From NCBI GenBank assembly GCA_916048095.2, contig OU696576.1, positions 3,326,501 to 3,390,500 of the forward strand: 64,000 nucleotides of DNA, written 5' to 3'. The stretch's first letter is position 1. Each line of letters opens with the position of its first letter. Shown here one piece after another: positions 1-56,071 of the stretch. The translations under genes and the position numbers were made by a program. The notes under the pieces were generated by a model, which saw only the letters and a program-made list of their open reading frames with translations, was not told the DNA's origin and searched no databases. Source of the DNA: Sacculina carcini (taxonomy: Eukaryota; Arthropoda; Thecostraca; Sacculinidae).

Positions 1-240
1 CAGGGCGTCGATGTCAATTCTTTTTGCACCGTCCACTTCAACGTCTACGCGACACTCTCCTTCACACGCCATCTCGTCACCACTGATAGTTACCAATGTT
101 GTATCAGTTCTTCTTAAACGGCTATCACATAAACGGTTGTATACTAGGCTCCTAGTACAACCAGTGTCCAGCATTGCTCGGCACCGCCTGCCATTTACGG
201 TGACCATCAGTGTGATCAGCGACGCTGGATTCACTGCGGA
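1..240 (-). CDS. P1 pol start: retropepsin (runs off the window)
   Basis: This is the beginning of the pol frame of gypsy-like element P1, read leftward off the edge of the window. The frame contains the retropepsin active site LDTGCTRSLV, the Asp-Thr-Gly triad that cuts the polyprotein. It is preceded by a short stretch reading VNPASLITLMVTVNGRRC. It lies in the -1 frame relative to the gag stop at 231-233, so Gag-Pol would need a -1 frameshift; I see no canonical slippery heptamer at the junction. The same DTGCT active site occurs in P2 and P3. Only about 75 codons are visible, and RT, RNase H and integrase would lie outside the window. Confidence 0.75.
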
Positions 241-1062
241 GAAAAGGCTCGCGTCGAGGCCTCCTCTCCTTTGGCATTTAAAGGACACACAGGGCTAATA
301 TGTCCGTATTTGCCGCAGGTATAACACGTCAGTCGTGCACGGCTTTTCGGATCGCCAACGCCTCGTTCAATTGTCGCCATTTGTCGCTGACTACAATAAC
401 GCGCTATATGACCCACCTTGTGACACACATAGCACCTCGCTGGAGACGTTCCTACGCGTCGCGGTGATGCGGCGTGTGCCACCACGGTAGCGACTGCGCC
501 CCCTTCAGGCTGCTGGTCAATTGCCGGTCCACATCCAGAAGCGTTTGACTCTGCCAGCACTACTCTCGCCCGGTCCACAACTTCCTCCATGCCCATAGCA
601 TCAAGTCTGGCGTTTGCTCGCATGGTCTGCCTCACGTGTTGAGGGAGGGCCGCCACAAACGCACATTTTAACGAAACGTCGTCGGAGATGTTGCATCGTT
701 TGCCCAGCCTGCGTAGACTTGCCAATAAAACGTTGACACTTTCGCCAGTCACTAACTTCCGTTTTGTGAATTCGTCGTAAGCAGTGAATGAATCCATTCC
801 GAACGCGGTTTGAAGCTCCTCTTCCAATTTAGACATATCCAGCTGGTCACTGTCAGACAAGGCATCCACCACTTCATAAGCATCACCCACGAGGCGCATG
901 CCGGCCACCACTGCCACTTGACTCACTCCGTGCAAACGACATATCTTTTTCACCTTCCCAATCCATGCAGACGGATCTGTCGTCCCATCGTATTCCGGTA
1001 CGAGTCTGAAATCCAACGTTGCCTCCGTACGCGGCGCCGAAATAGCTTGTAACTTGTGCTCC
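231..1062 (-). CDS. gag: P1 Gag with two CCHC zinc knuckles
   Basis: This encodes a Gag-like structural protein of an LTR retrotransposon, which packages element RNA in cytoplasmic particles. The N-terminal part aligns by eye with the Gags of P2 and P3: a PEYDGTTDP..WIGKV motif, a helical capsid-like region, and a CAFVAALPQHVR motif matching AFVVGLPREVSR. Two zinc knuckles follow, CYVCHKVGHIARYC and CYTCGKYGHISPVC, both CX2CX4HX4C. The frame is open upstream to 1241, but the region above 1048 is LTR. I take the ATG at 1062, although it lies just inside the LTR and the frame then reads through the primer site at 1036-1047. A start after the primer site is also possible. The stop is at 231-233, followed by the -1 frame protease. 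Confidence 0.8.
1036..1047 (-). other. P1 primer-binding site, complementary to the tRNA-Phe 5' end
   Basis: On the minus strand this reads AGCTATTTCGGC, directly after the LTR end TTACA. The plus strand, GCCGAAATAGCT, equals nucleotides 1-12 of the usual metazoan tRNA-Phe(GAA). The same block sits at the LTR edge in P2 and P3. Normal primer sites start with TGG and pair with a tRNA 3' end; this one does not. Confidence 0.6.
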
Positions 1063-15731: not shown

Positions 15732-16146
15732 TGGTGACCCCAACGTGATTTCTGTTGATACTGTTGGTAGCCATGGCAACCGGCGTGAAAAACCAGCTGC
15801 ACGGAGTGTTGCACAAGGGCCACCACGATTGCGCAAGAGTTCACCAATTATTCGCCTTTAGCAAGGCGTAAAATTGCGGAATTCGTTGACAAAATTGGCC
15901 TTTATAAAGGCGCATATGAGGTTTAATCGCTAAGAGAGTGCGCCTTTAAAAAGGCGTGAAGAGATGCTATGGGTACGTTACAATGCAGAAAAAGCAGATG
16001 GGTTTTTCCAGTGTATTAGCAAGTACAGCGTAGACTTGCAAAACAGCACGGCGAAATAACATTAAACACAAGGCGAGTATTGCAGAGGAGCAGCTGGAGA
16101 TGTGCTTGCAGTGTTGCTGGAGAGAGTGGCGAGTGCGCAGGAACAA
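15732..16146 (+). other. Leader remnant with three GCCTTT..AAGGC hairpins
   Basis: About 415 bp follow the primer site before array D cuts in. No Gag motif is seen. Three 16-bp near-perfect palindromes occur at 15853-15868 (CGCCTTTAGCAAGGCG), 15897-15912 (GGCCTTTATAAAGGCG) and 15941-15956 (CGCCTTTAAAAAGGCG), spaced 44 bp apart. Confidence 0.6.
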
Positions 16147-16707
16147 TGAGTTCACTCAGCATTGTGCGCCCACTTATATAGCCCGATGATTCATGCCGTT
16201 GTCGGAGCGCGCCGGAAGTGTGTCCGACAACCACATAAACTCGAGCTGATAGTGGTCAAAACGGTTGTGCTTTTGCGCAAAGCACGCGACTAAATGCATA
16301 GAGGACCGGGGTACAACACGTACCTTCACATACACAATACATTACAGTATATCTAAATAGGCAACACACATGAATAGCAAATACACATGCACGTTGATGC
16401 ATATGAACAGGCGAACATGGACGTACACAATTCAAAAACTATACAAACGTCACTTATGCATACATACAAAACATTTAAACACAAAACAAGATTATGTTTT
16501 AATTATGCGTGGTTCCCTAGGACATGGTTCAATACACTACACATGTTTCGCGCAGACAATAGTTTGGAATAACGTGCTACAACATTTTTCATCAAATTTA
16601 TACGATAGTGTAACGAATAACGTAGCATGTATGTATGTAATAAAAGTGTGCGCCTAAATACAAGAATATAACACATTAATATTTACGAGGAACGAATGGT
16701 GCCTACA
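16147..16707 (-). repeat. D LTR 1
   Basis: A 561-bp LTR which on the minus strand starts TGTAGGCACCATTCG after the purine tract TCTAGGGGGAGGGCCC and ends CTGAGTGAACTCA. It differs from LTR 2 at many positions in its left part but not in its right part. Confidence 0.88.
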
Positions 16708-19027
16708 GGGCCCTCCCCCTAGAAGTGTCGAGGAGAAACGAGACACTGCGATAACGCACAGGTGGGCGCACGGCACGACCGCTCCTAGTACGCAAAATGG
16801 ACTGTGGATGCGTGTATGTGTTGGTGTGTGTAGCTGTGTGTTCATGACCTGACCTGGTAGGGTCTGCAGCAGATGTCGGTGTCCGTGGCACGGTTGTTGG
16901 AGGCACGAACAGTTCTGTGTTGTCACCGTCATCTCGATCATCTGGCGTCGCAGGGGTTGAAACTGGCGAGTTTTGCTGCACGTCTTCGACGAAGGCCGGT
17001 TTGCAGCGATCGATGGAGATGACCGCGCGCTCGCTGTTTGTCTTAATCGTGACGAGTTTGTCTGTACGATGAATGACGGGAAACGGCCCGTCGTACGGAC
17101 AGTCGTGCGGGTATCTGTGCTTGTCTCTACGGACAAACACGTGCGTTTCGGTCTTGAGTGCTGTCGGAACAAACGAGGGCTGGTTGACTGCTCGTGGAAG
17201 TCGTGGCCGGAGTTTGCGCATGTGATTGCGCAGCGATGAAGCGAATGAAGCAGGATCACTGACTGTCTGCGTTGAGTCGCTGATCAACTCGCCAGGAAGT
17301 CGCAGGGACGCTCCGTAGACCAGTTCGGCCGAGCAGGCGCGGACATCAGTTTTGTGTGTCGACCGTATACCCAGTAATGCCATTGGCAAAACGTCCATCC
17401 ATGAAGATGTTTCGGCAGCGCGCAAACTTGATTTGAGCTGCCGATGGAAGCGTTCAGCCATGCCGTTGCTGCTTGGGTGATAACTGGTGGTGCGTATGCG
17501 CTGACAGCCAAGTAGTCGAGTGAGTTCGGACCACAGAGACGATTCGAATTGTGCCCCGCGATCTGTTGTGATGGTTGTCGGCACGCCAAAGCGTGAGACC
17601 CACTGGTGGAGAAACGCGCGTGCAACTGTCACTGCGCGAATGTCTGGCAAAGGAATGGCTTCCGGCCAGCGCGAAAATCTGTCCACACATGTGAGGAGGT
17701 ATGACTGACCTTGTGACGGCGGCAGCGGACCGACAATGTCCACGTGCACGTGACTGAAGCGTTCTCCAGGTGGCTGAAATGGTTGCACCGCGCTTTTCGT
17801 GTGACGGGTAACTTTCGCTCGTTGACACTGTAGGCATGTTCGGGTCCATTTGCGCACGTCGCGGTCCATGTCCGGCCACACGAAGCGTGACGAGACAAGC
17901 TTCACAGTGGCATCGATGCCTGGGTGTGAAAGATTGTGCAGAGAAGAAGTGTACGGCCGGCGTAATGCTGTCGGAAGCACTGGGCGAGGTCGACCGGTGG
18001 ACTCGTCGCACAAAACTTTTGCTTCGCCGAACATGACATCGCGTAGCTTCAGCGATGACGTCGCGTTGCGAAGCGTTCCCAATGAAGCGTCTTCCCGTTG
18101 AGCCGCAGCTAGGGAGACGTAGTCGTCGACTGGGCACGACGGAACAGTCAGTACAGCTGTTGTTCTGGAGAGTGCATCTGCCACTGTGTTTTTGTTGCCG
18201 GGTATGTGCCGGATCTCCGACACAAACTGGCTTATAAAATCCAAATGCCGCAACTCGCGAGGCGAGTATTTCTCTGACACTGAAGGCAGGGCATGCACGA
18301 GAGGGCGGTGATCGGTGAACACGATCACGTCACGCCCTTCGATCGTGTAGCGGAAGTGGCGAATGACCATGTACACTCCGAGCAGCTCTCTGCCGAATGT
18401 GCTGTATCGCCGTTCAGTAGACGTCAGCGTCTTGGAAAAGTAGCTGAGAGGCTGCCACTCACCATTGGTGTGCTGCTGCAGTACTCCGCCAACACCAGTG
18501 TCCGACGCGTCGACCAGGATACTCAATGGAGCACCGGGGATTTGATGTGCAAGCATACTACGGTCGGCTAGAGCTGTTTTGGCTGCATTGAAGCTGTCGA
18601 GGCTCTGTTGTGTCCATGCTACCGGAGCTTTGGACCGTTTGGCGCGGTGTGTCAGAAGAGAGTGCAGGGGGTGTAGTATGGCAGCTGCGTTGGGTATAAA
18701 ACGGTGATAATACGCCACCATACCAAAAAACCGGCGAAGCTGAGACTGACTGGTCGGCTGTGGGAATTCCCTGATTGCACGCACCTTGTCGCCGAGTGGG
18801 AAAATTCCGCCGGGTGTGACACGATGTCCGAGGAAAGAGACCGTGTCGCGACCAAATACACACTTGTCTTTGTTGATCACTACGCCGTAGGACTGCAATC
18901 TCTGAAACAAGGCGCGGAGGTGTCCTAGATGTTCGTCTTCGTTTGTTGATGCCACCAAAATGTCATCGAGATATGCGAAGCAGCCATCAACACCGCGCAG
19001 AACTTCGTCGATGAAACGCTGGAACGT
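16703..19027 (-). CDS. pol: D unit 1 Pol fragment: RT end, RNase H, integrase
   Basis: An open frame of about 775 codons with the C-terminal three quarters of a CsRn1-type Pol. It starts abruptly in RT at TFQRFIDEVLRG, just before the intact catalytic box YLDDILVAS. It then has RNase H (LVDASDTGVGG, FTDHRPLV, ADALSRT), the integrase finger (HPGIDATV ... CLQCQ) and the DDE core (VDIVGPLP, TDRGAQFESSLW, NGMAERFHR). Upstream codons come from the LTR, so it has no natural start. The stop codon overlaps the LTR start. The motif KTETHVF has Glu where unit 2 and C4 have Ala. Confidence 0.88.
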   Translation of the reverse strand, partial: TFQRFIDEVLRGVDGCFAYLDDILVASTNEDEHLGHLRALFQRLQSYGVVINKDKCVFGRDTVSFLGHRVTPGGIFPLGDKVRAIREFPQPTSQSQLRRFFGMVAYYHRFIPNAAAILHPLHSLLTHRAKRSKAPVAWTQQSLDSFNAAKTALADRSMLAHQIPGAPLSILVDASDTGVGGVLQQHTNGEWQPLSYFSKTLTSTERRYSTFGRELLGVYMVIRHFRYTIEGRDVIVFTDHRPLVHALPSVSEKYSPRELRHLDFISQFVSEIRHIPGNKNTVADALSRTTAVLTVPSCPVDDYVSLAAAQREDASLGTLRNATSSLKLRDVMFGEAKVLCDESTGRPRPVLPTALRRPYTSSLHNLSHPGIDATVKLVSSRFVWPDMDRDVRKWTRTCLQCQRAKVTRHTKSAVQPFQPPGERFSHVHVDIVGPLPPSQGQSYLLTCVDRFSRWPEAIPLPDIRAVTVARAFLHQWVSRFGVPTTITTDRGAQFESSLWSELTRLLGCQRIRTTSYHPSSNGMAERFHRQLKSSLRAAETSSWMDVLPMALLGIRSTHKTDVRACSAELVYGASLRLPGELISDSTQTVSDPASFASSLRNHMRKLRPRLPRAVNQPSFVPTALKTETHVFVRRDKHRYPHDCPYDGPFPVIHRTDKLVTIKTNSERAVISIDRCKPAFVEDVQQNSPVSTPATPDDRDDGDNTELFVPPTTVPRTPTSAADPTRSGHEHTATHTNTYTHPQSILRTRSGRAVRPPVRYRSVSFLLDTSRGRAL

Positions 19028-19588
19028 TGAGTTCACTCAGCATTGTGCGCCCACTTATATAGCCCGATGATTCATGCCGTTGTCGGAGCGCGCCGGAAGT
19101 GTGTCCGACAACCACATAAACTCGAGCTGATATTGGTCTAAACGGTTGTGCTTTTGCGCAAAGCACGCGACTAAATGAATAGAGGACCGGGGTGCAACAC
19201 GTACAACCACATGCACAATACATTACAGTATATCTAAATAGGCAACACATATGAACAGCAAATACACATGCACGTTGATGCATATGAACAAGCCAACATG
19301 AACGTACACAATTCAAAAACTATACTAACGTCACTTATGCATACATACAAAACATTTAAACACAAAACAAGATTATGTTTTAATTATGCGTGGTTCCCTA
19401 GGACATGGTTCAATACACTACACATGTTTCGCGCAGACAATAGTTTGGAATAACGTGCTACAACATTTTTCATCAAATTTATACGATAGTGTAACGAATA
19501 ACGTAGCATGTATGTATGTAATAAAAGTGTGCGCCTAAATACAAGAATATAACACATTAATATTTACGAGGAACGAATGGTGCCTACA
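19028..19588 (-). repeat. D LTR 2 (recombinant)
   Basis: 561 bp. Up to about 19326 it follows LTR 3 (for example TATACTAACG), and from about 19373 it follows LTR 1 (for example GATTATGTTTTAATTATG). The switch lies in 19327-19372. Confidence 0.88.
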
Positions 19589-21908
19589 GGGCCCTCCCCC
19601 TAGAAGTGTCGAGGAGAAACGAGACACTGCGATAACGCACAGGTGGGCGCACGGCACGACCGCTCCTAGTACGCAAAATGGACTGTGGATGCGTGTATGT
19701 GTTGGTGTGTGTAGCTGTGTGTTCATGACCTGACCTGGTAGGGTCTGCAGCAGATGTCGGTGTCCGTGGCACGGTTGTTGGAGGCACGAACAGTTCTGTG
19801 TTGTCACCGTCATCTCGATCATCTGGCGTCGCAGGGGTTGAAACTGGCGAGTTTTGCTGCACGTCTTCGACGAAGGCCGGTTTGCAGCGATCGATGGAGA
19901 TGACCGCGCGCTCGCTGTTTGTCTTAATCGTGACGAGTTTGTCTGTACGATGAATGACGGGAAACGGCCCGTCGTACGGACAGTCGTGCGGGTATCTGTG
20001 CTTGTCTCTACGGACAAACACGTGCGTTGCGGTCTTGAGTGCTGTCGGAACAAACGAGGGCTGGTTGACTGCTCGTGGAAGTCGTGGCCGGAGTTTGCGC
20101 ATGTGATTGCGCAGCGATGAAGCGAATGAAGCAGGATCACTGACTGTCTGCGTTGAGTCGCTGATCAACTCGCCAGGAAGTCGCAGGGACGCTCCGTAGA
20201 CCAGTTCGGCCGAGCAGGCGCGGACATCAGTTTTGTGTGTCGACCGTATACCCAGTAATGCCATTGGCAAAACGTCCATCCATGAAGATGTTTCGGCAGC
20301 GCGCAAACTTGATTTGAGCTGCCGATGGAAGCGTTCAGCCATGCCGTTGCTGCTTGGGTGATAACTGGTGGTGCGTATGCGCTGACAGCCAAGTAGTCGA
20401 GTGAGTTCGGACCACAGAGACGATTCGAATTGTGCCCCGCGATCTGTTGTGATGGTTGTCGGCACGCCAAAGCGTGAGACCCACTGGTGGAGAAACGCGC
20501 GTGCAACTGTCACTGCGCGAATGTCTGGCAAAGGAATGGCTTCCGGCCAGCGCGAAAATCTGTCCACACATGTGAGGAGGTATGACTGACCTTGTGACGG
20601 CGGCAGCGGACCGACAATGTCCACGTGCACGTGACTGAAGCGTTCTCCAGGTGGCTGAAATGGTTGCACCGCGCTTTTCGTGTGACGGGTAACTTTCGCT
20701 CGTTGACACTGTAGGCATGTTCGGGTCCATTTGCGCACGTCGCGGTCCATGTCCGGCCACACGAAGCGTGACGAGACAAGCTTCACAGTGGCATCGATGC
20801 CTGGGTGTGAAAGATTGTGCAGAGAAGAAGTGTACGGCCGGCGTAATGCTGTCGGAAGCACTGGGCGAGGTCGACCGGTGGACTCGTCGCACAAAACTTT
20901 TGCTTCGCCGAACATGACATCGCGTAGCTTCAGCGATGACGTCGCGTTGCGAAGCGTTCCCAATGAAGCGTCTTCCCGTTGAGCCGCAGCTAGGGAGACG
21001 TAGTCGTCGACTGGGCACGACGGAACAGTCAGTACAGCTGTTGTTCTGGAGAGTGCATCTGCCACTGTGTTTTTGTTGCCGGGTATGTGCCGGATCTCCG
21101 ACACAAACTGGCTTATAAAATCCAAATGCCGCAACTCGCGAGGCGAGTATTTCTCTGACACTGAAGGCAGGGCATGCACGAGAGGGCGGTGATCGGTGAA
21201 CACGATCACGTCACGCCCTTCGATCGTGTAGCGGAAGTGGCGAATGACCATGTACACTCCGAGCAGCTCTCTGCCGAATGTGCTGTATCGCCGTTCAGTA
21301 GACGTCAGCGTCTTGGAAAAGTAGCTGAGAGGCTGCCACTCACCATTGGTGTGCTGCTGCAGTACTCCGCCAACACCAGTGTCCGACGCGTCGACCAGGA
21401 TACTCAATGGAGCACCGGGGATTTGATGTGCAAGCATACTACGGTCGGCTAGAGCTGTTTTGGCTGCATTGAAGCTGTCGAGGCTCTGTTGTGTCCATGC
21501 TACCGGAGCTTTGGACCGTTTGGCGCGGTGTGTCAGAAGAGAGTGCAGGGGGTGTAGTATGGCAGCTGCGTTGGGTATAAAACGGTGATAATACGCCACC
21601 ATACCAAAAAACCGGCGAAGCTGAGACTGACTGGTCGGCTGTGGGAATTCCCTGATTGCACGCACCTTGTCGCCGAGTGGGAAAATTCCGCCGGGTGTGA
21701 CACGATGTCCGAGGAAAGAGACCGTGTCGCGACCAAATACACACTTGTCTTTGTTGATCACTACGCCGTAGGACTGCAATCTCTGAAACAAGGCGCGGAG
21801 GTGTCCTAGATGTTCGTCTTCGTTTGTTGATGCCACCAAAATGTCATCGAGATATGCGAAGCAGCCATCAACACCGCGCAGAACTTCGTCGATGAAACGC
21901 TGGAACGT
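19584..21908 (-). CDS. pol: D unit 2 Pol fragment: RT end, RNase H, integrase
   Basis: A near-identical copy of the unit 1 frame, 2881 bp to its right, with the same truncation at the RT residues TFQRF. All catalytic motifs listed for unit 1 are present. The single difference I can find in the protein is Ala for Glu in KTATHVF, caused by base 20029. The Ala form is shared with C4, so the unit 1 change probably came after duplication. As in unit 1, an LTR replaces everything upstream, so the frame lacks Gag, protease and the RT N-terminus. Confidence 0.88.
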   Translation of the reverse strand, partial: TFQRFIDEVLRGVDGCFAYLDDILVASTNEDEHLGHLRALFQRLQSYGVVINKDKCVFGRDTVSFLGHRVTPGGIFPLGDKVRAIREFPQPTSQSQLRRFFGMVAYYHRFIPNAAAILHPLHSLLTHRAKRSKAPVAWTQQSLDSFNAAKTALADRSMLAHQIPGAPLSILVDASDTGVGGVLQQHTNGEWQPLSYFSKTLTSTERRYSTFGRELLGVYMVIRHFRYTIEGRDVIVFTDHRPLVHALPSVSEKYSPRELRHLDFISQFVSEIRHIPGNKNTVADALSRTTAVLTVPSCPVDDYVSLAAAQREDASLGTLRNATSSLKLRDVMFGEAKVLCDESTGRPRPVLPTALRRPYTSSLHNLSHPGIDATVKLVSSRFVWPDMDRDVRKWTRTCLQCQRAKVTRHTKSAVQPFQPPGERFSHVHVDIVGPLPPSQGQSYLLTCVDRFSRWPEAIPLPDIRAVTVARAFLHQWVSRFGVPTTITTDRGAQFESSLWSELTRLLGCQRIRTTSYHPSSNGMAERFHRQLKSSLRAAETSSWMDVLPMALLGIRSTHKTDVRACSAELVYGASLRLPGELISDSTQTVSDPASFASSLRNHMRKLRPRLPRAVNQPSFVPTALKTATHVFVRRDKHRYPHDCPYDGPFPVIHRTDKLVTIKTNSERAVISIDRCKPAFVEDVQQNSPVSTPATPDDRDDGDNTELFVPPTTVPRTPTSAADPTRSGHEHTATHTNTYTHPQSILRTRSGRAVRPPVRYRSVSFLLDTSRGRAL

Positions 21909-22469
21909 TGAGTTCACTCAGCATTGTGCGCCCACTTATATAGCCCGATGATTCATGCCGTTGTCGGAGCGCGCCGGAAGTGTGTCCGACAACCACATAA
22001 ACTCGAGCTGATATTGGTCTAAACGGTTGTGCTTTTGCGCAAAGCACGCGACTAAATGAATAGAGGACCGGGGTGCAACACGTACAACCACATGCACAAT
22101 ACATTACAGTATATCTAAATAGGCAACACATATGAACAGCAAATACACATGCACGTTGATGCATATGAACAAGCCAACATGAACGTACACAATTCAAAAA
22201 CTATACTAACGTCACTTATGCATACATACAAAACATTTAAACACAAAACAAGAATATGTTTTAATGATGTGTGGTTCCCTAGGACATGGTTCAATACACT
22301 ACACATGTTTCGCGCATACAATAGTTTGGAATAACGTGCTACAACATTTTTCATCAAATTTATACGACAGTGTAACGAATAACGTAGCATGTATGTATGT
22401 AATAAAAGTGTGCGCCTAAATACAAGAATATAACACATTAATATTTACATGGAACGAATGGCGCCTACA
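21909..22469 (-). repeat. D LTR 3
   Basis: 561 bp. It matches LTR 2 in the left part and diverges in the right part (GAATATGTTTTAATGATG, GCGCATACAA, ATGGCGCCTACA). Confidence 0.86.
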
Positions 22470-22643
22470 ACACTACACATATTTCGCGCAGAAAATAGTT
22501 TGGAAGAACGTGCTACAACATTTTTCATCAAATTTATACGATAGTGTAACGAATAACGTAGCATGTATGTATGTAATAAAAGTGTGCGCCTAAATACAAG
22601 AATATAACACATTAATATTTACAAGGAACGAATGGTGCCTACA
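22470..22643 (-). repeat. Partial D LTR, tandem to LTR 3
   Basis: 174 bp repeating the last third of the D LTR on the plus strand (ACACTACACAT ... GGTGCCTACA), with a few differences from LTR 3. Confidence 0.8.
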
Positions 22644-24578: not shown

Positions 24579-24949
24579 TGTGGAGACGATGTTGGCGCCT
24601 CCGCGCTGAAAGGAGAAGACGGAACTATATAGGGTGTGTGGAGACTGTTGGTTTTTTGTGTTTATATTTGTTGGCTTACATGTTCTTGCTTTTGCATTGA
24701 TGGATTGAATATTTTGGCTATTTTGTGGGATAACAACAAGATAGATGGTGGTTGAGGTTGTTGTGGTTGATAATGTGTTTGGTTGGGAAGTGTTTGTGAA
24801 GTATTGAAAAGGAAGGAAGCGTTACTGTTTAGTACCGTGTCAAAGTGAAACCATTGATCAGAAAAATATATTGTGTGAAATATTGTGATCGGAACACCGT
24901 GGATTTTTGCTTGGGCGCGCGTAACAACAGTTCGTTTTTGGATCGAACA
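24579..24949 (+). repeat. BEL 5' LTR
   Basis: It starts TGTGGAGACGATG and ends GGATCGAACA. It differs from the 3' copy by scattered substitutions and small indels, for example ATATTGTG vs ATATTATGTG. Confidence 0.92.
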
Positions 24950-27171: not shown

Positions 27172-27176
27172 GTTTG

Positions 27177-27630
27177 TGTGGTTAGTGCGTGTATTAATTG
27201 TTGTATATTTGTATATGTGTGTAAGAGTTTGTAAGCGTGCGCGTGCACTATTGGACTTGTTATTGGGAACGTTACTGCAGGTGGCTCGAATGTCATGCGC
27301 GTGCAACTGAACATGTGTGTGTATGCGCGTGTGTGTTTGTATGTTCGTGTGTGCGTGAGTGACAGTTGATTGCGTCAGCGAGAATGTGACGAGTCAGTGA
27401 GAGTCTTGGTGTTGCGTTGGTTTAGTGTGCGGTGTTTTGTGCGGCGATAGTTGTTTCAGTGCTTTTCGCGTGTGCGTTTGTCTAGGGGTTTTACGTGCGA
27501 GTGTGAGAGGATCTTGTGTGCCGTATTCTTCTCCGTGTTCTTTGCTGGCGTCGTCTGAACTATTGTGCGGCTTTATTTCCAGTTTCATATCATCGATATA
27601 ATTCGCATTAAATACATCGTTCACATTACA
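27177..27630 (+). repeat. P2 5' LTR
   Basis: 454 bp, from TGTGGTTAGTGCG to TTCACATTACA. It contains TG-rich simple sequence. Confidence 0.95.
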
Positions 27631-27650: not shown

Positions 27651-28427
27651 ATGGCGAATCTGAAGCTGCATGACATTGTACGGCCGTTTGACGGGAGCCA
27701 GGATGTCGTACAATGGATCGACAAGTTTGATAGAGTGGCAGAACTACGGAAGATTGACGCCCTCGAGACCGTCGTGCCTCTGTTCCTCGATGGCCCGGCG
27801 TACGCAGTGTTCTGTGAAATGGATGAGGTCAAAAAGTGTGTGTATTCGGAGATCAAAAGATCACTGCTGGACGCTTTCGCTACAGACAGGTTCTCGGCAT
27901 ACGAAATGTTCACCGCGTGCAAGTGGAAGGGAGAGCCAGCCGATGTTTACATGGCGAGCCTGAGGCGACTTGCTAAGCTTGCTAATATTGAGTGTGACAA
28001 TGTTCTCAAGAACGCTTTTGTGGTGGGATTGCCGCGTGAGGTCTCACGAGGATTGAGAACCATGCCGAATTTGACAACAATTGCTTTGGCGTCGGTCGTC
28101 GAGCGTGCACGCATCCTTTTGTCAGAGATCGGCGAGGGTAGTACTGCAATGGTGGCACGAAACACGCAACACTCTCGCAATGAGAAAATACAATATTCGA
28201 CGCAGAGAAGGTGTTTCAATTGTGGTGGCCCTCATCTCGCAAGGTACTGCAATGCGCGGAGCAGCGGTGGTTCATTGCAAAATGTGCGTCGCCAATTTGA
28301 ATGTTTCGGATGCGGGGGACCGCATCTAAGGCGAAACTGTCCTCGCGAACAAGAAAGAAGACAACAGACGGGAAACGACGAGGGGAGATCTGGTGCGCCA
28401 GCAGCTCTCCCACTGACCAGTCAGTAA
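27651..28427 (+). CDS. gag: P2 Gag with two short-spaced zinc knuckles
   Basis: An open 258-residue Gag starting at the first ATG after the primer site. The N-terminus has the family signature IVRPFDGSQDVVQWIDKFD, followed by a capsid-like helical region (FSAYEMF, AFVVGLPREVSRGLR). From about residue 188 two knuckles follow, CFNCGGPHLARYC and CFGCGGPHLRRNC. Their spacing is CX2CX3HX4C, one residue shorter between the second Cys and His than the canonical knuckle and than P1. The C-terminus overlaps pol; pol is in the -1 phase. P3 Gag is the closest relative in the window. Confidence 0.88.
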   Translation: MANLKLHDIVRPFDGSQDVVQWIDKFDRVAELRKIDALETVVPLFLDGPAYAVFCEMDEVKKCVYSEIKRSLLDAFATDRFSAYEMFTACKWKGEPADVYMASLRRLAKLANIECDNVLKNAFVVGLPREVSRGLRTMPNLTTIALASVVERARILLSEIGEGSTAMVARNTQHSRNEKIQYSTQRRCFNCGGPHLARYCNARSSGGSLQNVRRQFECFGCGGPHLRRNCPREQERRQQTGNDEGRSGAPAALPLTSQ

Positions 28428-31270
28428 TGGCGCTTCCGCGTGTACCAGCGGTAGTCAATGGTAGAAATGTGCATGCTGTGATGGACACGGGCTGCACAAT
28501 GTCGATCGTGTCTCGATCGATTGCTGCAAATGCGCGTGGCAGCTGCAGCGTGACTACCGTCGATGGTCGTAGAGTGCCGTGTGCTGGTACGGACAAGGTG
28601 CGAGTGGCTGTAGGTGGCGTGGAACTCTGGTTGCCTGTGATAGTGGCTAACGATCTATTGGGCGAGGTTGAAGTGATTCTTGGCATGGACGTCGTTGCGA
28701 GGCTCGGGGGCGTATACGTGGACGAGCGTGGTGTAGTATTGGGGCCTAGAGAATGTTCGGTGCCTAATGGCAGTCCGGTGTGCAGTGTGATTGCAGGTAC
28801 TGTTCCGAGAACAGCGAAAACTGAGGTGTGTCCGTCGGATGAACTGAAGATAGATGACTGTGATTTTGAGGCTAGATTCGATGGTGACTCGTGGATAGTG
28901 AAGTGGAAATGGTGCGACGGGGCCCCGGTGCTCAGAAACGTTGTCGGTAGTTACAGCAGTGTAAGGAAGCCCGAGTTGAAGGATAGATTTGACGAAGAGA
29001 TTCGGAGATGGATATCACAGGGCTGGTTGATACCTTGTGGAATGACCGGGGGCATACTTCCGTTGATGGCCGTTGATCAACCGAATAAGAAAAAGGTGAG
29101 GCCGGTGATTGACTACCGCGAACTCAATAAGTACGTTGAGAGTCACAGTGGGTTCGACGCTCCGGTGTGTGAAGAGACATTGCGTGGCTGGCGCAGGTGG
29201 CCGGGCCCGCTGAAATTGGTCGACCTGAAGACGTCTTATCTGCAGATCAAAATGGATGAAACTTTATGGCAGTACCAGCAAGTCGAGTTTAATGGGGACA
29301 GGTACTGTCTAACGAGACTGGGATTCGGTCTTAGTTGTGCACCCCGGGTGATGACGAAGATTTTAAGGAAGGTATTGAGCATGAACGAACGAATCCAGTC
29401 AGGAACGAGCTCGTATATAGATGATATTCTGGTAAACGAGAGTGTTGTGAGCGCCGCCGATGTCATCAATCATTTAAAAAAGAACGGTTTGGAGGCGAAG
29501 GTACCTGAGGACATGGAAAATGGTCGAGCGCTTGGACTGAATCTGCGAGTAGACAGAGGTGTTTTGGTTTTCAGCAGAGGGAATGAACTTCCGGATGATG
29601 TAGAAGATGGCACGACCAAGAGACAACTGATTTCCTTGTGCGGTAGACTAGTTGGGCACTATCCTGTGGCTGGGTGGTTGAGGGTTGCCGCTAGTTTTGT
29701 GAAAAGATCGACACAAAATATTGATTGGGATGAAAGCGTGAGCTGTGAGACTTTGGTAATGGCACGAGAAATGCTCAAGAAAGTTCTGTCGAATGATCCA
29801 GTGCGTGGCAGATGGCATGTACCTGACAAGCTGAAAGGAACCGTCTGGTGTGATGCTAGCAGTCTTGCTCTAGGAGTCATTCTTGAGGTGGACGGCGAGG
29901 TAGCAGAAGACGCGTCGTGGCTGCGAAAGTCAGGTGATGCACATCACATCAACGTTGTCGAGATGGACACCGTGTTGAGAGGAGTCAACCTAGCGGTGAA
30001 ATGGGGTATTCAGCAGATCGAGGTGAAAACGGATTCTTCCACGGTGCTTGGATGGCTGAAATCGGTGCTAAACGGCGAGAGCCGGATGAAGAGCAGCATT
30101 GCGGCTGAAATGTTGATCAAACGCAGGCTTGGCGTGTTGAGTGATCTGGCTGATGAACTCGGTCTGAGAATATCAGCATCTTACGTTAGGTCATAACATA
30201 ACAAGGCGGATGCACTCACCAGGGTGCCGAGGTCGTGGCTACGGATGTCTGAGGCAAATAATGAGACGGGTCTTATGACGGTGGAAGAGTTACATGGTCT
30301 GCATCATTTTGGTGTCGACAGAACCTTGGCGCTGAGTAGAATGGTAGATCCCAAAGTGACCAAGAAAGAAACGGAGGACTGTGTGAAAAGATGTTTGCGT
30401 TGTCAGTCGGTGGATCCAGCGCCAGTAAGACACCCTCCTGGCGAAATCAGTGTTGAAAATAATTGGAGTCGCTTGTCGGTGGACGCTACAGAGTACAAGA
30501 GCCAGTGCTATGTGACTATTGTGGATTCCGGCCCATGTCGCTTTGCGCTATGGAAAAAGGCGCGCTCCGAGAACGCCGACGACGTTGTGAGGATCCTGAA
30601 CGACGTGTTTCTCGAAAGAGGACCTCCGGATGAAATGTTGCTGGACAACAGTGCCGCGTTCCGATCGTCTGTACTGGCAGAGCTGTGTGACAAGTGGGGT
30701 GTCATCAGGAGGTATCGAGCAGCTTATCGACCTACGGGAAACGGGATCGTAGAGCGTCATCATCGCACTGTGAAGAGAATGGCGGAACGATGTGGCAAAA
30801 CTCCACCAGAAATGGTGTTTTGGTACAACATGGCACCAAGGAATATCGCCGACCCTGAGACGGCTCCAGCTCGCGGGCTGTACCGCTATGAGTGGAGACA
30901 TCCCATGACTCCTGTTGAGGGTTCTCGGAAAGAAGACAGTGGCTGGCGAGTGGGAGATGAGGTGCTGGTGAAACCACCTGGAGCGAGATGCACCATACAT
31001 TGGCGCAGAGGTAGAGTTACTGGTGTGACATCTTCCAGTAATATTGACGTCGACGGCACACCGCGCCACGTCCTAGACGTGCGGCGCTTGTTTGCGGTTG
31101 AATCGGACGAAGAGGACGAAAGCGAGGCGCGGCGTTCTACTGGTGAAGCGGAGATGCGGAGTTTCGGTGAAGAGCATCAAGGCAGGCCCGTAAGAGAAAG
31201 GCGCAGACCTCGGTGGATGGAAGATTACCACGTTGGAGATGATGAAGACATCACGGGGGCGTGTGGTTAG
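28301..31270 (+). CDS. pol: P2 Pol: protease, RT, RNase H, integrase (one stop)
   Basis: A single frame of 990 codons, open from 28301, interrupted only by TAA at 30194-30196. Retropepsin has VMDTGCTMS (Asp about residue 62). RT has VRPVIDYRELNKY, LVDLKTSYLQIKMD, RLGFGLSCAP and the catalytic box SSYIDDILVNE (about residue 372). RNase H reads VWCDASSLALGVILE, with VVEMDT and TDSSTVLGWL. Integrase has HGLHHFGV ... CLRCQ and a DDE core in SVDATEY, LLDNSAAFRSS and NGIVERHHR. The stop falls in the RNase H end, where P3 reads RSADNKADK. The WCDASS-type RNase H and this RT differ clearly from the CsRn1 and Mag elements nearby, so it is a separate gypsy-like lineage. The final codons enter the 3' LTR. 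Confidence 0.87.
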
Positions 31271-31715
31271 TGCGTGTATTAATTGTTGTATATTTGTATA
31301 TGTGTGTAAGAGTTTGTAAGCGTACGCGTGCACTATTGGACTTGTTATTGGGAACGTTACTGCAGGTGGCTCGAATGTCATGCGCGTGCAACTGAACATG
31401 TGTGTGTATGCGCGTGTGTGTTTGTATGTTCGTGTGTGCGTGAGTGACAGTTGATTGCGTCAGCGAGAATGTGACGAGTCAGTGAGAGTCTTGGTGTTGC
31501 GTTGGTTTAGTGTGCGGTGTTTTGTGCGGCGATAGTTGTTTCAGTGCTTTTCGCGTGTGCGTTTGTCTAGGGGTTTTACGTGCGAGTGTGAGAGGATCTT
31601 GTGTGCCGTATTCTTCTCCGTGTTCTTTGCTGGCGTCGTCTAAACTATTGTGCGGCTTTATTTCCAGTTTCATATCATCGATATAATTCGCATTAAATAC
31701 ATCGTTCACATTACA
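31262..31715 (+). repeat. P2 3' LTR
   Basis: 454 bp, nearly identical to 27177-27630. The differences I found are GTACGCG vs GTGCGCG, and CTAAAC vs CTGAAC. Confidence 0.95.
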
Positions 31716-31720
31716 GTTTG

Positions 31721-35095: not shown

Positions 35096-35469
35096 TGTAG
35101 AGACGATGTTGGCACCTCCGCGCTGAAAGGAGAAGACGGAACTATATAGGGTGTGTGGAGACTGTTGGTTTCTTTGTGTTTATATTTGTTGGCTTACATG
35201 TTCTTGCTTTTGCATTGATGGATTGAATATTTTGGATATTTTATGGGATAACAACAAGATAGATGGTGGTTGAGGTTGTTGTGGTTGATAATGTGTTTGG
35301 TTAGGAAGTGTTTGTGAAGTATTGAAAACGAAGGAAGCGTTACTGTTTAGTACCGTGTCAAAGTGAAACCATTGATCAGAAAAATATATTGTGTGAAATA
35401 TTATGTGATCGGAACACCGTGGAGTTTTGCTTGGGCGCGCGTAACAACAGTTCGTTTTGGGATCGAACA
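35096..35469 (+). repeat. BEL 3' LTR
   Basis: It starts TGTAGAGACGATG after the purine tract CAGAGGGGGAG and ends GGATCGAACA. It is followed by GCCCC. Confidence 0.92.
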
Positions 35470-43136: not shown

Positions 43137-44056
43137 GAAGCTACTAGCTACTTAATTTGGATCTAGTACAATATTGCCCAATGAACATATTGGCCAAAAA
43201 CGCCCGCATGCTCCCATACTCTGCAATAGGGCAATATGTTCACCTCGGCCAGTGAAGTGTCAAAGGCGTATCAAGAGCGGTGAGTGCGACTGTGGCGTGT
43301 GGCCAATATGTTCACTTTTCACCATGGCGAAATTTTAGTGGTTTTCAACACAAGACAAGAGTTCATACACAAGTAGCTAGCACCTCACATACTGTGGGGT
43401 TATTGGCTAGGCTCAGTAATCTAAATTGACTTAACCTGACCTGACCTGACCTAACCTAGCCAAGACTAAACCTAGCCGCACAGTATGTTAGGTGCTAGCT
43501 ACTTGTTGTATAGAAACTCGTGTGTTGTGTTGAAAACCACTGAAATTATGCTATGGTGAAAAGTGAACATATTGGCTACACGCCACAGTCGCACTCACCG
43601 CACTTGGTACGCCTTTGACACTACGCTGGTCGAGGTGAACATATTGCCCTATTGCAGAGTATGGGAGCATGCGGGCGTTTTTGGCCAATATGTTCATAGG
43701 GCAATATTGTAGTACTCCCCTTAATTTCACTTCCATCCACAAACTATTCACCCTGTTACTAATCTTTCGTGACCTAAATAGAGGCAGCACGTTCCAAATA
43801 AGAGCCAACGTCTCACATACACGCAGAAACAACATGGACATTACCTGTCCTGCGTTTAGAACAATATTGTTTAAAAATAGTCTTTTTTATTTTGGTCCGA
43901 ATCTGTTCAATAGTCTTCCTCATCGTCTGAAATCTCTTCCAGCTACAAATAAATCACTGATCAAAAAGTATATAAAGAAATATTTGTTGGATTTACAGTG
44001 TACTCAGTCTCCTTAGGAGATTGAATTCGCAGTTTTGCTTGAGCGATTTTGTGCTT

Positions 44057-52327: not shown

Positions 52328-52339
52328 AGCTATTTCGGC
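52328..52339 (+). other. P3 primer-binding site, complementary to the tRNA-Phe 5' end
   Basis: AGCTATTTCGGC directly after TTACA, as in P1 and P2. Bases after it (TGAAAA) are not shared with the other two elements. Confidence 0.6.
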
Positions 52340-52344
52340 TGAAA

Positions 52345-53190
52345 ATGGCGACAGGCGATGCTACGAGTACTGGTTCAGCAGTGAATATCAAGTTGAGCGA
52401 TATGATCCGTCCGTTCGACGGCAGCCAGGATGTGGTGCAGTGGCTTGATAAGGTGGAAATGGTGGCCAAATTGAAAGGTATTTCCAATTTGGAATGTGTC
52501 GTTTCGCTTTTTCTCGAGGGGACTGCATATGCGATATACAGTGAGATGGACGACAACAAGAAGAATCGGTATGATGAAACTTCAAGATCTCTACTGAACG
52601 CATTTGCTATGAATAGTTTTTCCGCCTACGAAATGTTCACGACGCAAAAGTGGCAAGATGAACCAGCCGACGTATTTATGTCGAAATTGAAGAGACTAGC
52701 TAAACTGGCCGGTATGGAAAGCGAGTTCGTTTTGAGGAAGGCGTTCGTGGTTGGGCTGCCAAGAGAAGTGTCACGTGAGCTAAGGGTCGTGTCAGGGGTG
52801 GACACAGTGGGTCTTCCGCTGTTGGATGAGCGGGCGCGTGTACTGCTATCTGAATTGTGCACTGACAATGCCGCCATGGTGTCAAGAACTGTGCCTTCTC
52901 GAAACATTCACGTGAATTGAGGCTCTCTATCGCAAGTTCGTGGAGGCTGCTTCAACTGCGGAGAGCCCCATTTAGCCAGGAACTGCAGCAGGTCAACGAT
53001 AGCCGGTCAGTATAGCCTGCGCCGATTTCAGTGCTTCGGATGCGGATGTGCTCATCTTCTCAGAAGCTGCCCAGCAGCTGGACAAATGTACAGGAGATCG
53101 GGAAACGACCACGGGAGGACTGGTGCGCCAGCACTTCTCCCAGCCACCAACGACCAACAGAGGCGCTACCACGCGTTGAGGCGAGAGTGA
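52345..53190 (+). pseudogene. gag: P3 Gag, one premature stop
   Basis: It starts MATGDATSTGS and carries the family signature MIRPFDGSQDVVQWLDKVE and KAFVVGLPREVSRELR. TGA at 52918-52920 cuts the frame before the zinc knuckles. In the same frame beyond it are CFNCGEPHLARNC and CFGCGCAHLLRSC, both CX2CX3HX4C as in P2. The frame ends at 53190 and overlaps pol in the -1 phase. Overall similarity to P2 Gag is clear along the whole length. Confidence 0.85.
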
Positions 53191-56071
53191 ATGGTGTGCT
53201 GGTGTCGGCAGTGATCGACACTGGCTGCACTAAATCAATTGTGGCCGAATGTTTGGTGGACAGATCGCGAGGGAGTAGTTATGTGACAGCTGTTGATGGT
53301 CGCCGCGTGAAGTTTGGCGGTGCATTGGACGTGCAGGTGATTTTGAATGGTGCCACTCTCGAGGTCTCTTGCATTGTTGCCAGTGGCTTACTGGGTGGTG
53401 TCAAAGCAATTTTTGGGATGTACGTCATTAGGCAGCTTGGCGGCGTGTATATTGGGGAGCAGGGTGTCACATTTGGAAGCCGGTCCTCCAGCTGCAAAAC
53501 AATTTTCAACCTTGACGATTCTACCCGTGGTAACATGGACATTTCTACTGCACCACACTACTCACATGATAATCGTAATGGTGTGTCATCTTGTGACGCT
53601 GACGATTTCTTGGAGGTGCATGACTCTGATTTCGACGCCAGGTTCAGTGGTGGGAAGTGGACCGTTTCTTGGCGGTGGAAGGATGGTGTGGAGCCCAAAT
53701 TGAGTAACACTGTCAGTGAGTACAGCAGTGTTCAGGATGAGGCGATACAGGACGAGTGGAGACGGAAAATTGAGGACTGCATCAGTAAGGGTTGGCTTAA
53801 TGAATGTAAACATCGGTGAGACGTTGAGGGAATTTTGCCTTTGATGGCGGCAGTTCAGAAAAGTAAAGGAAAAGTGCGGCCTGTATTGGATTACAGGGAG
53901 CTCAACGATTATGTCAGTTGTCATCCCGGCCTTGATGTTGCTGTGTGTGATGAGACTATAAGGAAGTGGAGGAGGTTTCCGGAACGAGTCAAACTTGTCG
54001 ATTTAAAGTCTGCGTATCTGCAGGTACACATGGATGAGTCGCTTTGGCGTTATCAGCGAGTCAGGTATAATGGCCGCTTGTACTTTCTTACTCGCTTAGG
54101 ATTTGGGCTTAACTGTTCGCCAAAGGGAATGTCAAAAATCGTAAATGCTGTCCTCGCGGCCGAAGCTAAGGTGCGCAGTGGTACCGATAGTTACATCGAC
54201 GACATCATCGTCAACGAGGACGTCGTGACCGCTGAGACGGTAGTGGCACACCTGGCTCGCTACGGACTTCAAACGAAGCCTCCGGAGTCACCTGATGGCG
54301 GAAGAATACTTGGGCTGTCTCTAAGGAAGGACGTTCCTGACGGTAAGCTGCATTTTTCTAGTGGGAACGAACTGCCGCAGATCGACAGTGAAGGTGAGCT
54401 GACAAAGCGTCGATTGTTTTCTGTTTGTGGGCAACTCCTGGAACATTATCCTGTTTGTAGTTGGTTGCGTGTAGCGTGCAGTTACATAAAACGTAAATGT
54501 CAGTGCGAACGATGGGATGATACTGCGGGCGTTTCAGCGTCAAACTTCCTAAAAGAAGTTATACAAAGAGTAACGATTGAGGATCCAGTGAAAGGTGCAT
54601 TTCAATGCTGATAATGATCATGGTCGCGTCTGGTGCGACGCTAGTAGCTCGGCTACAGGTGTATGTTTGGAGATAGACGGAGATGTTGTAGAAGATGCCG
54701 CTTGGCTGCGGAAAAGCGAGGATTTTGGGCACATAAATCTGGCCGAGCTAGAGGCTGTTTTGAAAGGTGTTAACCTCGCTCTTAAGTGGAACTTGACATC
54801 AATTGAAGTGTTAACCGATTCAGCGACAGTGTTGAAATGGTTAAAGACAATGCTATGTGACGAGAACCGGATAAAAGTGGCGGGGATGTCGGAGGTCTTG
54901 GTGAGAAGACGATTAGGTATTTTGCGCAGTATTGTAGACGAGATGAAGGTGAACATTACCGTAAAATTCACACGTTCGGCTGACAATAAGGCCGATAAAC
55001 TTACGAGGGTGCCTAACAGATGGCTAAAGACGCACGACTCACATGCATGTACAGTGGCCATGGATGCGGCATCGAAATGACATGCCAACCATCATCTGGG
55101 CGTGGATCGTTCCCTGTATCTAGCGAGACTAGCGAATCCGAAGGTGACGAGGAAGGAAATGACTAGTATAGTGAGAAATTGCATAGATTGTAAGATGATT
55201 GATCCTGCGCCGGTTGTACTTGTACGCGGCGAGCTTGAAGTGAAATTGAATTGGAGTAGACTTGCGTTAGACGTTACTCATTACAATGGTGAATGCTACC
55301 TAACTGTGATTGATTGTGGGCCCAGCAGATTCGCGATTTGGCGCAAGATAAGGGCAGAAGATGCTGCTGAGGTGAGCAGTCGGGTTGAGCAAATATTCAT
55401 GGAAAGAGGCCCGCCAGACGAACTTTCGATGGACAATGGGTTTGCTTTCAGATCAGAAAAACTTGCGAGGCTTTGTGAGAGCCGCCGCCGCAGATTCCGT
55501 GCAGCCCATAGACCATCAGGAAACGGCATTGTCGAGAGGGTGCATCGCACTGTCAAGCGCATGACAGCCAGGTCTAGGAGCGACCCTTTGAGGATGGTTT
55601 TCTGGTATAATCTCGCTGCAAAAGAAAGCCACCGCTCCGTCGGCAGCTCTGCATACGTACGAGTGGCGTCATCCTGCGTGTGTCAGACATAGCACAGACA
55701 GTCCGATTATATCAGAGTTTCGAGTTGGTGATTTGGTTGCGACGAAACCGGGAGTTGCAAGGTGTACTACTCGACGAAAAGAGGTCACTGGTATAGTTTC
55801 AGGTGATGTGGTAGAAGTCGGGGGAGTGCCGAGACACGTGAGGGATGTTCGACTGCTCAAGCGAAGAGACGAAGGAAGGAATCGTTCGGGAAGAGTGTGC
55901 GCTCCTGATGAAGCAATTCAGCAATCAACTCGCGTCCTCTCAGAAGAGTCCGAAGATGAAGCGCCTGTTACTGAACGGTCCGAACAAGAAAGCGAAGAAA
56001 CTGCTCCTCCGAGAAGTTCGAGTCGCGTGAGGAAGGATCCGACATGGTTTATAGATTATATTGTAAACTGA
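53031..56071 (+). pseudogene. pol: P3 Pol: protease, RT, RNase H, integrase (broken)
   Basis: Collinear with P2 Pol. Retropepsin reads VIDTGCTKSIVAE. TGA at 53817-53819 falls before RT (VRPVLDYRELNDYV, VDLKSAYLQVHMD, and the intact catalytic box DSYIDDIIVNE). A frameshift near 54600 separates RNase H (VWCDASSSATGVCLE, TDSATVLKWL). TGA at 55078-55080 precedes the integrase finger (HHLGVD ... CIDCK). The core holds LDVTHYNG, MDNGFAFRSE and NGIVERVHR. Another frameshift near 55625 precedes the C-terminal domain (YEWRHP, VPRHVRDVRLL). The catalytic residues survive despite the breaks. Confidence 0.87.

Follow-up and report, generated by a model that had tools for sequence, protein, structure and literature searches.

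What starts reverse transcription in an LTR retrotransposon when the edge of its LTR carries no TGG, the mark of an ordinary primer site? The question is raised by three elements, P1, P2, and P3, in a stretch of 64,000 nucleotides from Sacculina carcini (contig OU696576.1, positions 3,326,501 to 3,390,500), which we call the window. A sequence-only reading of this DNA had claimed that the three elements share a 12-nucleotide block, AGCTATTTCGGC, directly after the LTR, and that the block is complementary to the 5' end of tRNA-Phe. The block is indeed at the LTR edge of P1-P3, and the phenomenon is larger than first described.

The block and the elements that carry it

Exact copies of the block lie at positions 1036-1047 (minus strand) in P1, 27631-27642 (plus strand) in P2, and 52328-52339 (plus strand) in P3, with no further exact copy in the window. 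When up to two mismatches are allowed, the window contains nine matches against 3.26 expected, a number that was reached in none of 100 shuffles. A tblastn search of the window with the gag of P2 (E at most 1e-6) returns three gag-like copies, those of P2, P1, and P3, and the block stands just upstream of all three; in P1, the gag homology is just downstream of it on the minus strand. The edge of P2 is fixed by two LTRs of 454 bp, 99.6% identical, which occupy positions 27177-27630 (TG...TTACA) and 31262-31715 on the plus strand. They are flanked by a 5-bp target-site duplication, GTTTG, at 27172-27176 and 31716-31720, according to our own reading of the edges of the repeat pair. Since the LTR pair and the duplication fix the edge, TTACA is the end of the P2 LTR and the block comes next with zero spacing, just as had been claimed.

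The coding content of P2 starts with a gag-like ORF of 258 amino acids (27651-28427, plus strand), which has no Pfam match and which we named by its place and its relatives. It is followed on the same strand by an ORF encoding an aspartic protease, a reverse transcriptase (RT) with the YIDD motif, DUF7047, and an RNase H of the family PF13456 (28301-30196), and by an integrase ORF (30224-31270) whose Pfam scores are just below the curated cut-offs. In P3, a gag-like reading frame recognised as an ORF with gag homology (52345-52920, plus strand) precedes a pol region with several broken frames (53031-55692, plus strand), where Pfam identifies the protease, RT, DUF7047, RNase H, and integrase. 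P1 is a partial element, with a gag-like frame (234-1043, minus strand) that includes a CCHC zinc knuckle. P2 and P3 have the Ty3/gypsy order of domains, i.e., protease, RT, RNase H, and integrase, with the Pfam match of the latter slightly below the curated cut-off. Yet, their RNase H belongs to PF13456 and not to the usual gypsy families PF17917 and PF17919. The D, E, D, and D residues of what we take to be the RNase H motifs are present in P3; the fourth of them, an aspartate, lies in P3 in a region that the pol frame of P2 does not reach. DUF7047 (PF23088) precedes RNase H in both elements, and two other ORFs of the window carry PF17917/PF17919.

The search for relatives gave 843 proteins (E at most 0.001). 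Among the best 120 of these 843, most are from environmental assemblies, and those with a named organism are only from the sea spider Nymphon striatum; relatives that have DUF7047 occur in both sources. When the RT profile was compared with solved structures, the best match was to retroviral RTs. Searches for relatives matched three stretches in viral contigs and 16 in prokaryote genomes, none of which was confirmed. 14-mer matches in viral contigs (at least 120 stretches) were put down to chance, since the stretches listed encode no relative. At another host locus, L218, a TRIM9/67-like ORF gave 20 matches, and those with a named organism are from a beetle, a grasshopper, and a mantis shrimp, in line with an arthropod host. 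The sequence-only reading had described the elements as gypsy, with copia as the closest parallel: the first part is in agreement with the domain order but not with the family of the RNase H, and, for the second, Tf1 appears closer in mechanism (see below).

The host assembly that we searched (264 Mb, 43 contigs) contains 2,021 exact copies of AGCTATTTCGGC (1,005 + 1,016), against five for the reversed control. On the complementary strand, the nucleotide that follows the block is A, C, or G in 46 copies, and it is T followed by A, C, or T in 62, such that 108 copies lack the TG expected of an LTR. By subtraction, CA, the usual end of an LTR, precedes the block in 1,913 of the 2,021 copies. We examined 73 junctions, which comprise 70 of the genomic copies, all from contig C1, and those of P1-P3. 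The block is preceded by CA in 71 of them and by TTACA in 31. The junctions fall into 22 groups that are mutually without BLAST similarity (E 1e-4, 150 nt on either side), and the largest group comprises 27 junctions. When each group is represented by a single sequence, the two positions of the CA carry 2.0 and 1.7 bits of information, and none of the ten positions that follow the block exceeds 0.5 bit. The invariance within the 12 nucleotides was imposed by the pattern search and is no evidence; what counts is how sharp the edges are, that CA stands there, and how many copies exist. That similarity ends right after the block, with leaders that otherwise differ, had been noted for three elements and is now seen across the 73 junctions and 22 groups. 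A BLAST search with the flanks for junctions found independently of the block, among the host loci collected here, recovered P1-P3 alone. Two junctions of L244, a locus that was not picked via the block, carry it exactly.

The LTR edges of other copies had been proposed as the place to look for TGG. In the 73 junctions, all selected by the block, it is the block itself that stands there. The window also has eight other repeat pairs, and four of these show TGG at the edge or at most 3 nt off, as in ordinary elements. These sites, read from the edges of the repeat pairs (46716 and 58531 on the plus strand, about 5915 and about 42799 on the minus strand), are usable as internal controls. The other four pairs (X11, X16, X24, and X38) have no TGG at the edge. 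One of them, X24 (24579-24949 and 35096-35469), is an LTR-like pair (TG...CA) of 371 bp and 97% identity whose edge lacks both TGG and the block.

The match to tRNA-Phe

The complement of the block, GCCGAAAUAGCU, equals nucleotides 1-12 of animal tRNA-Phe, which we checked in print for human and fly. A primer for the 5' end of the human tRNA-Phe reads GCCGAAATAGCTCAGTTGGGAG (PMC10505166), and probes that hybridise to the 5' end of the Drosophila tRNA-Phe terminate in AGCTATTTCGGC (PMC6542536; PMC7038984). The complementarity claimed for metazoan tRNA-Phe thus agrees with the printed ends of both species. The duplex between the block and nucleotides 1-12 has 12 Watson-Crick pairs and an energy of -18.8 kcal/mol. 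By our own estimate, the probability that a random 12-mer coincides with the first 12 nucleotides of any of some 45 tRNAs is roughly 3 in a million. Thirteen other host tRNAs, among which the initiator tRNA was not identified, match the block over at most six contiguous nucleotides. Complements of the 5' ends of 15 other host tRNAs were searched after CA in 363 kb enriched for the Phe block, and none was present there. We consider that tRNA-Phe is likely to be the partner of the block.

Which end of the tRNA would be used? Ordinary priming by a tRNA 3' end was rejected on three grounds. First, there is no TGG at the edge. Second, the block is in its place in 73 junctions. Third, the site expected for the 3' end of tRNA-Phe, TGGTGCCGA, is not nearby: it is absent from the window and from the 73 junction segments (108 kb in total, with 40 segments of only about 400 nt). 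A less direct use of the 3' end would have the block act as an accessory contact for the 5' strand of an intact tRNA-Phe, with the CCA end priming elsewhere, as in the bipartite arrangements of Ty1 and Ty3. Such bipartite contacts are known (PMC5371799), but the lack of TGGTGCCGA in any of the 73 segments and in the window speaks against one here, as does the position of the block, which is where minus-strand synthesis must begin. We give this explanation only the slimmest of chances.

The sequence-only reading had proposed to compare the junctions with the tRNA-Phe genes of the host. The junctions are available, 73 of them with the block at the edge, but the host gene was not found in the assembly, and for this reason we infer the 5' end of the host tRNA-Phe. 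The gene was missed by patterns for the 5' end and for the D arm and anticodon, by the middle segment of the tRNA with up to three mismatches, and by a similarity search with all 73 nucleotides. The 3' part, with up to three mismatches, added only two tRNA-Val genes, both three-mismatch matches. One D-arm/anticodon pattern gave 11 matches against five in the control, and ARAGORN reported no tRNA-Phe among them; a second pattern gave five matches, with no tRNA in the two of the five loci scanned by ARAGORN; and a third gave three, of which one locus was scanned. The four matches of the middle segment were discarded: one is a tRNA-Tyr, another has the same letters, and two are not tRNA genes. 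The search with RF00005 produced 51 matches among the 63 candidates scored out of 15,013 found at first look. The 28 loci derived from it hold 29 tRNA genes (Arg, Cys, Lys, Thr, Ala, Met, and Ser), which we judge to be of animal type, and none for Phe. Across 171 host loci (299 kb), ARAGORN found genes for Arg, Lys, Val, Cys, Thr, Ala, Ser, Met, and Tyr, and again none for Phe. An animal assembly of 43 contigs that has other tRNA genes and yet no detectable tRNA-Phe gene is an observation in its own right.

The lack, in the assembly, of a tRNA-Phe gene with the 5' end GCCGAAAUAGCU would suit a scenario where another host RNA, e.g., a spliced leader or a small RNA, bears this sequence and acts as the primer, in which case the match to tRNA-Phe would be fortuitous. 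A source gene for GCCGAAAUAGCU could be sought among the block copies themselves. We inspected 52 of the 108 copies that lack the TG, for tRNA genes only: they mostly resemble mutated primer sites, and none of the 52 is a tRNA gene. The 1,913 copies with TG were only sampled in this hunt. Arguments against another RNA are the estimate of about 3 in a million for a chance equality and the existence of tRNA-Phe chimeras within block-type elements (see the last section), which make this scenario very improbable.

Proposed priming by the 5' end of a tRNA

We favour the hypothesis, with a probability of roughly 0.7, that the block is a primer-binding site pairing with nucleotides 1-12 of tRNA-Phe, and that the tRNA is cut after nucleotide 12, most likely by the RNase H of the element. 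Under this hypothesis, AGCTATTTCGGC would be the site where minus-strand synthesis is primed in a large lineage of LTR retrotransposons, and it would pair with the 5' strand of the acceptor stem of the host tRNA-Phe, with nucleotides 8-9, and with a part of the D stem. Given that the block begins exactly at the LTR edge, the 3' hydroxyl of the primer would be at nucleotide 12, and the tRNA would have to be cut after this nucleotide, which is plausible. The most likely cutter would be the element's own RT/RNase H, acting in an RNA-RNA duplex as Tf1 does on its mRNA. The priming routes explained so far, in the parts of the literature accessible to us, use tRNA 3' ends, half-tRNAs, or the 5' end of the element's own RNA, and our search, which covered few subscription papers, found no primer site for a tRNA 5' end.

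Tf1 uses the first 11 bases of its own RNA, which anneal to the primer site and are severed from base 12 by RNase H (PMC7175516). Tf1/sushi elements resemble those described here in having a site at the LTR edge without TGG, and in a primer made of the 5'-terminal 11-12 nt or so of an RNA, which needs a cut. They differ in the origin of this RNA, which is the 5' end of their own mRNA and here would be the 5' end of a host tRNA. Could the elements simply do as Tf1 does, with the 5' end of their own RNA pairing with the block? The site is short, has zero spacing and lacks TGG, and Tf1-type elements are known to use an 11-nt self-primer (PMC7175516, PMC4600332). Still, in 33 copies from 15 groups, the upstream sequence (up to 1,400 nt) contains no stretch of 9 nt or longer that is complementary to the block. 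The longest upstream complement in these copies has 8 nt, or 6 nt when it must include the 3' end of the primer, so the complementarity between primer site and RNA 5' end that characterises Tf1 is not found, and self-priming from the 5' LTR was rejected for matches of 9 nt or more. Self-priming would also turn the equality of the block with nucleotides 1-12 of tRNA-Phe into a coincidence. We regard it as highly improbable.

The primer of copia is an internally cleaved initiator tRNA. The likeness to our hypothesis is the use of a cut tRNA (PMC5371799), a putative one in our case; the difference is that copia uses an internal region of the tRNA ending at a cut in the anticodon loop, and the elements described here would use nucleotides 1-12 of tRNA-Phe. 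The mechanistic parallel appears closer to Tf1 than to copia. The copia route does suggest another source for the primer: a host nuclease might make in advance a 5' fragment of tRNA-Phe that ends at nucleotide 12, or might trim a half of about 35 nt. Halves of this length from the 5' part of tRNA-Phe occur in Drosophila (PMC7038984), and copia primes with a half-tRNA (PMC5371799). However, the known halves end in the anticodon loop and not at nucleotide 12, and a 5' half would be left with about 25 nt unpaired at its 3' end. We find a host-made fragment unlikely.

The other systems to which priming by a 5'-terminal tRNA segment can be compared are of two types. First, ordinary Ty3/gypsy elements and retroviruses, IAP among them, share with the elements of the window the LTRs, the succession of protease, RT, RNase H, and integrase, and the target duplication. 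IAP even uses tRNA-Phe as primer (PMC7472051), but in IAP and the others the 3' end of the tRNA is paired, whereas here it would be the 5' end and there is no TGG at the edge. Second, some elements with unexplained priming resemble those described here in that their LTR edge lacks a primer site of the ordinary kind: Skipper of Dictyostelium, which has a polypyrimidine stretch (PMC5006619), the fungal GalEa, which has a conserved hairpin (PMC5445492), and Tcn2-5 of Cryptococcus (PMC7175516). None of these is described as matching a tRNA 5' end in the accessible text of the same three papers.

If the elements do prime on the 5' end of tRNA-Phe, then this would connect two routes, that of tRNAs and that of Tf1, and it would suggest how self-priming and tRNA priming might interconvert. 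There might also be advantages for the element, such as escaping competition with the aminoacylation of the tRNA 3' end, or escaping silencing by 3' tRNA fragments, which act via 3'-end primer sites (PMC7472051). A direct prediction is that RNA-linked strong-stop cDNA should start with GCCGAAAUAGCU.

Pieces of tRNA-Phe in rearranged copies

The similarity search of the assembly with the 73 nucleotides of tRNA-Phe returned exactly two matches, L243 and L244, both of them copies of the 3' part. The piece in L243 (C19:4480881-4480915, minus strand) spans nucleotides 38-72 with two substitutions, one of them at position 58, and the piece in L244 (C12:8527627-8527656, minus strand) spans nucleotides 38-67 exactly. 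Both begin at nucleotide 38 of the tRNA and both are inside scrambled copies of block-type elements. In L244, the order is an inverted piece of pol, the tRNA piece, an LTR, and the block. L243 has neither LTR nor block: the tRNA piece, flanked by inverted arms of about 174 bp (93%), stands where the LTR and the primer site are expected, and directly abuts a leader akin to those of copies that have the block. The leader motif that they share starts 28 nt past the tRNA piece of L243, against 29 nt past the block in copies like L005. On the other hand, the leader of L243 falls short of that of its best match, L185, by 16 nt, and of those of L189 and L190 by 26 nt. These distances place the tRNA piece at the primer site or at most 26 nt inside the leader.

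Nucleotides 66-72 of the tRNA (TTTCGGC) are identical to the last seven nucleotides of the block, since both are complementary to nucleotides 1-7. This identity leaves the switch point anywhere within nucleotides 66-72, such that the tRNA origin of the chimeras can be taken as certain for nucleotides 38-67 only, and nucleotides 66-72 of L243 could derive from the primer site. The same identity would allow the nascent cDNA to slip from the end of the primer site onto the freed 3' strand of the acceptor stem, UUUCGGC. The slipped cDNA might then copy the tRNA back as far as the modified base 37, and copying that slips and stops in this way would yield chimeras like L243 and L244. In some insects, base 37 of tRNA-Phe bears m1G37 only, a modification that hinders reverse transcription. 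In eukaryotic tRNA-Phe, this base can bear peroxywybutosine, reported to be a major roadblock to RT, and zebrafish reads stop there (PMC11417395). The start at nucleotide 38 hence fits an RT that copies from the acceptor end. It also adjoins the zone of anticodon-loop cleavage, as expected if the host had made the fragment: a cut in the anticodon loop yields the same end, but so does the roadblock at base 37. Furthermore, m1A58 has been described in tRNA-Phe (PMC11417395), and the change from A to T at position 58 of L243 fits a misreading of this base, as a single case in a diverged copy that has a second change.

How much do the chimeras tell us about priming? Next to proviruses, RTs have copied tRNAs that do not serve as primer as well (PMC12220202), such that two chimeras are a support and not a proof of primer use. 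In the accessible text of that source, the DNA of HIV and of murine leukaemia virus also has tRNA cDNA fused to that of the retroelement, but there it comes from tRNA-Gly and others that are not the primer, whereas here it comes from the tRNA that matches the primer site, the sole tRNA searched. The case for tRNA-Phe as primer, and with it the complete scenario given below, is slightly weakened by the leader distance of L243, which fits only some of its relatives, and by the presence of TGG in only four of the eight other repeat pairs of the window. One could also think that the chimeras are plain insertions of tRNA halves by LINE-type machinery, with no tie to priming, given that tRNA-like repeats seem present in the host genome (as matched pattern strings). 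This is quite unlikely, because both pieces are at breakpoints of inverted and rearranged block-type elements, and in L243 the tRNA copy replaces the LTR and the primer site ahead of the leader. Chimeric copies may instead serve as a readable record of tRNA-Phe inside the reverse-transcription complex. The complete scenario, in which the lineage starts reverse transcription on the 5' 12 nucleotides of a host tRNA, cuts it with its own RNase H, keeps the remainder in the particle, and occasionally has this remainder copied into the genome, is one that we put forward tentatively, at slightly under even odds.

Some other rearrangements were observed in the host genome and in the window. In L188, a copy similar to P1, the block is partly duplicated (GCCGAAATAGCTGAAATAGCTTG), as would result from slippage in the primer-site region during copying. 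In L207, two blocks (C23:4634282 on the plus strand and 4634357 on the minus strand) face each other over a short palindrome, with an identical flank each. Five block copies on contig C24 (1090956, 1094056, 1097156, 1100256, and 1103356), with TT next on the complementary strand, are spaced by exactly 3,100 bases, and are perhaps a tandem array of the element or of a satellite derived from it. Within the window, a tandem element at 16136-22643 has repeats spaced by 2,881 bases, with three copies of 300 nt and four of 174 nt, and 3,453 bp at 99% identity. Finally, an inverted repeat at 43164-43714 has arms of 209 nt that are 92% complementary and separated by 133 nt.
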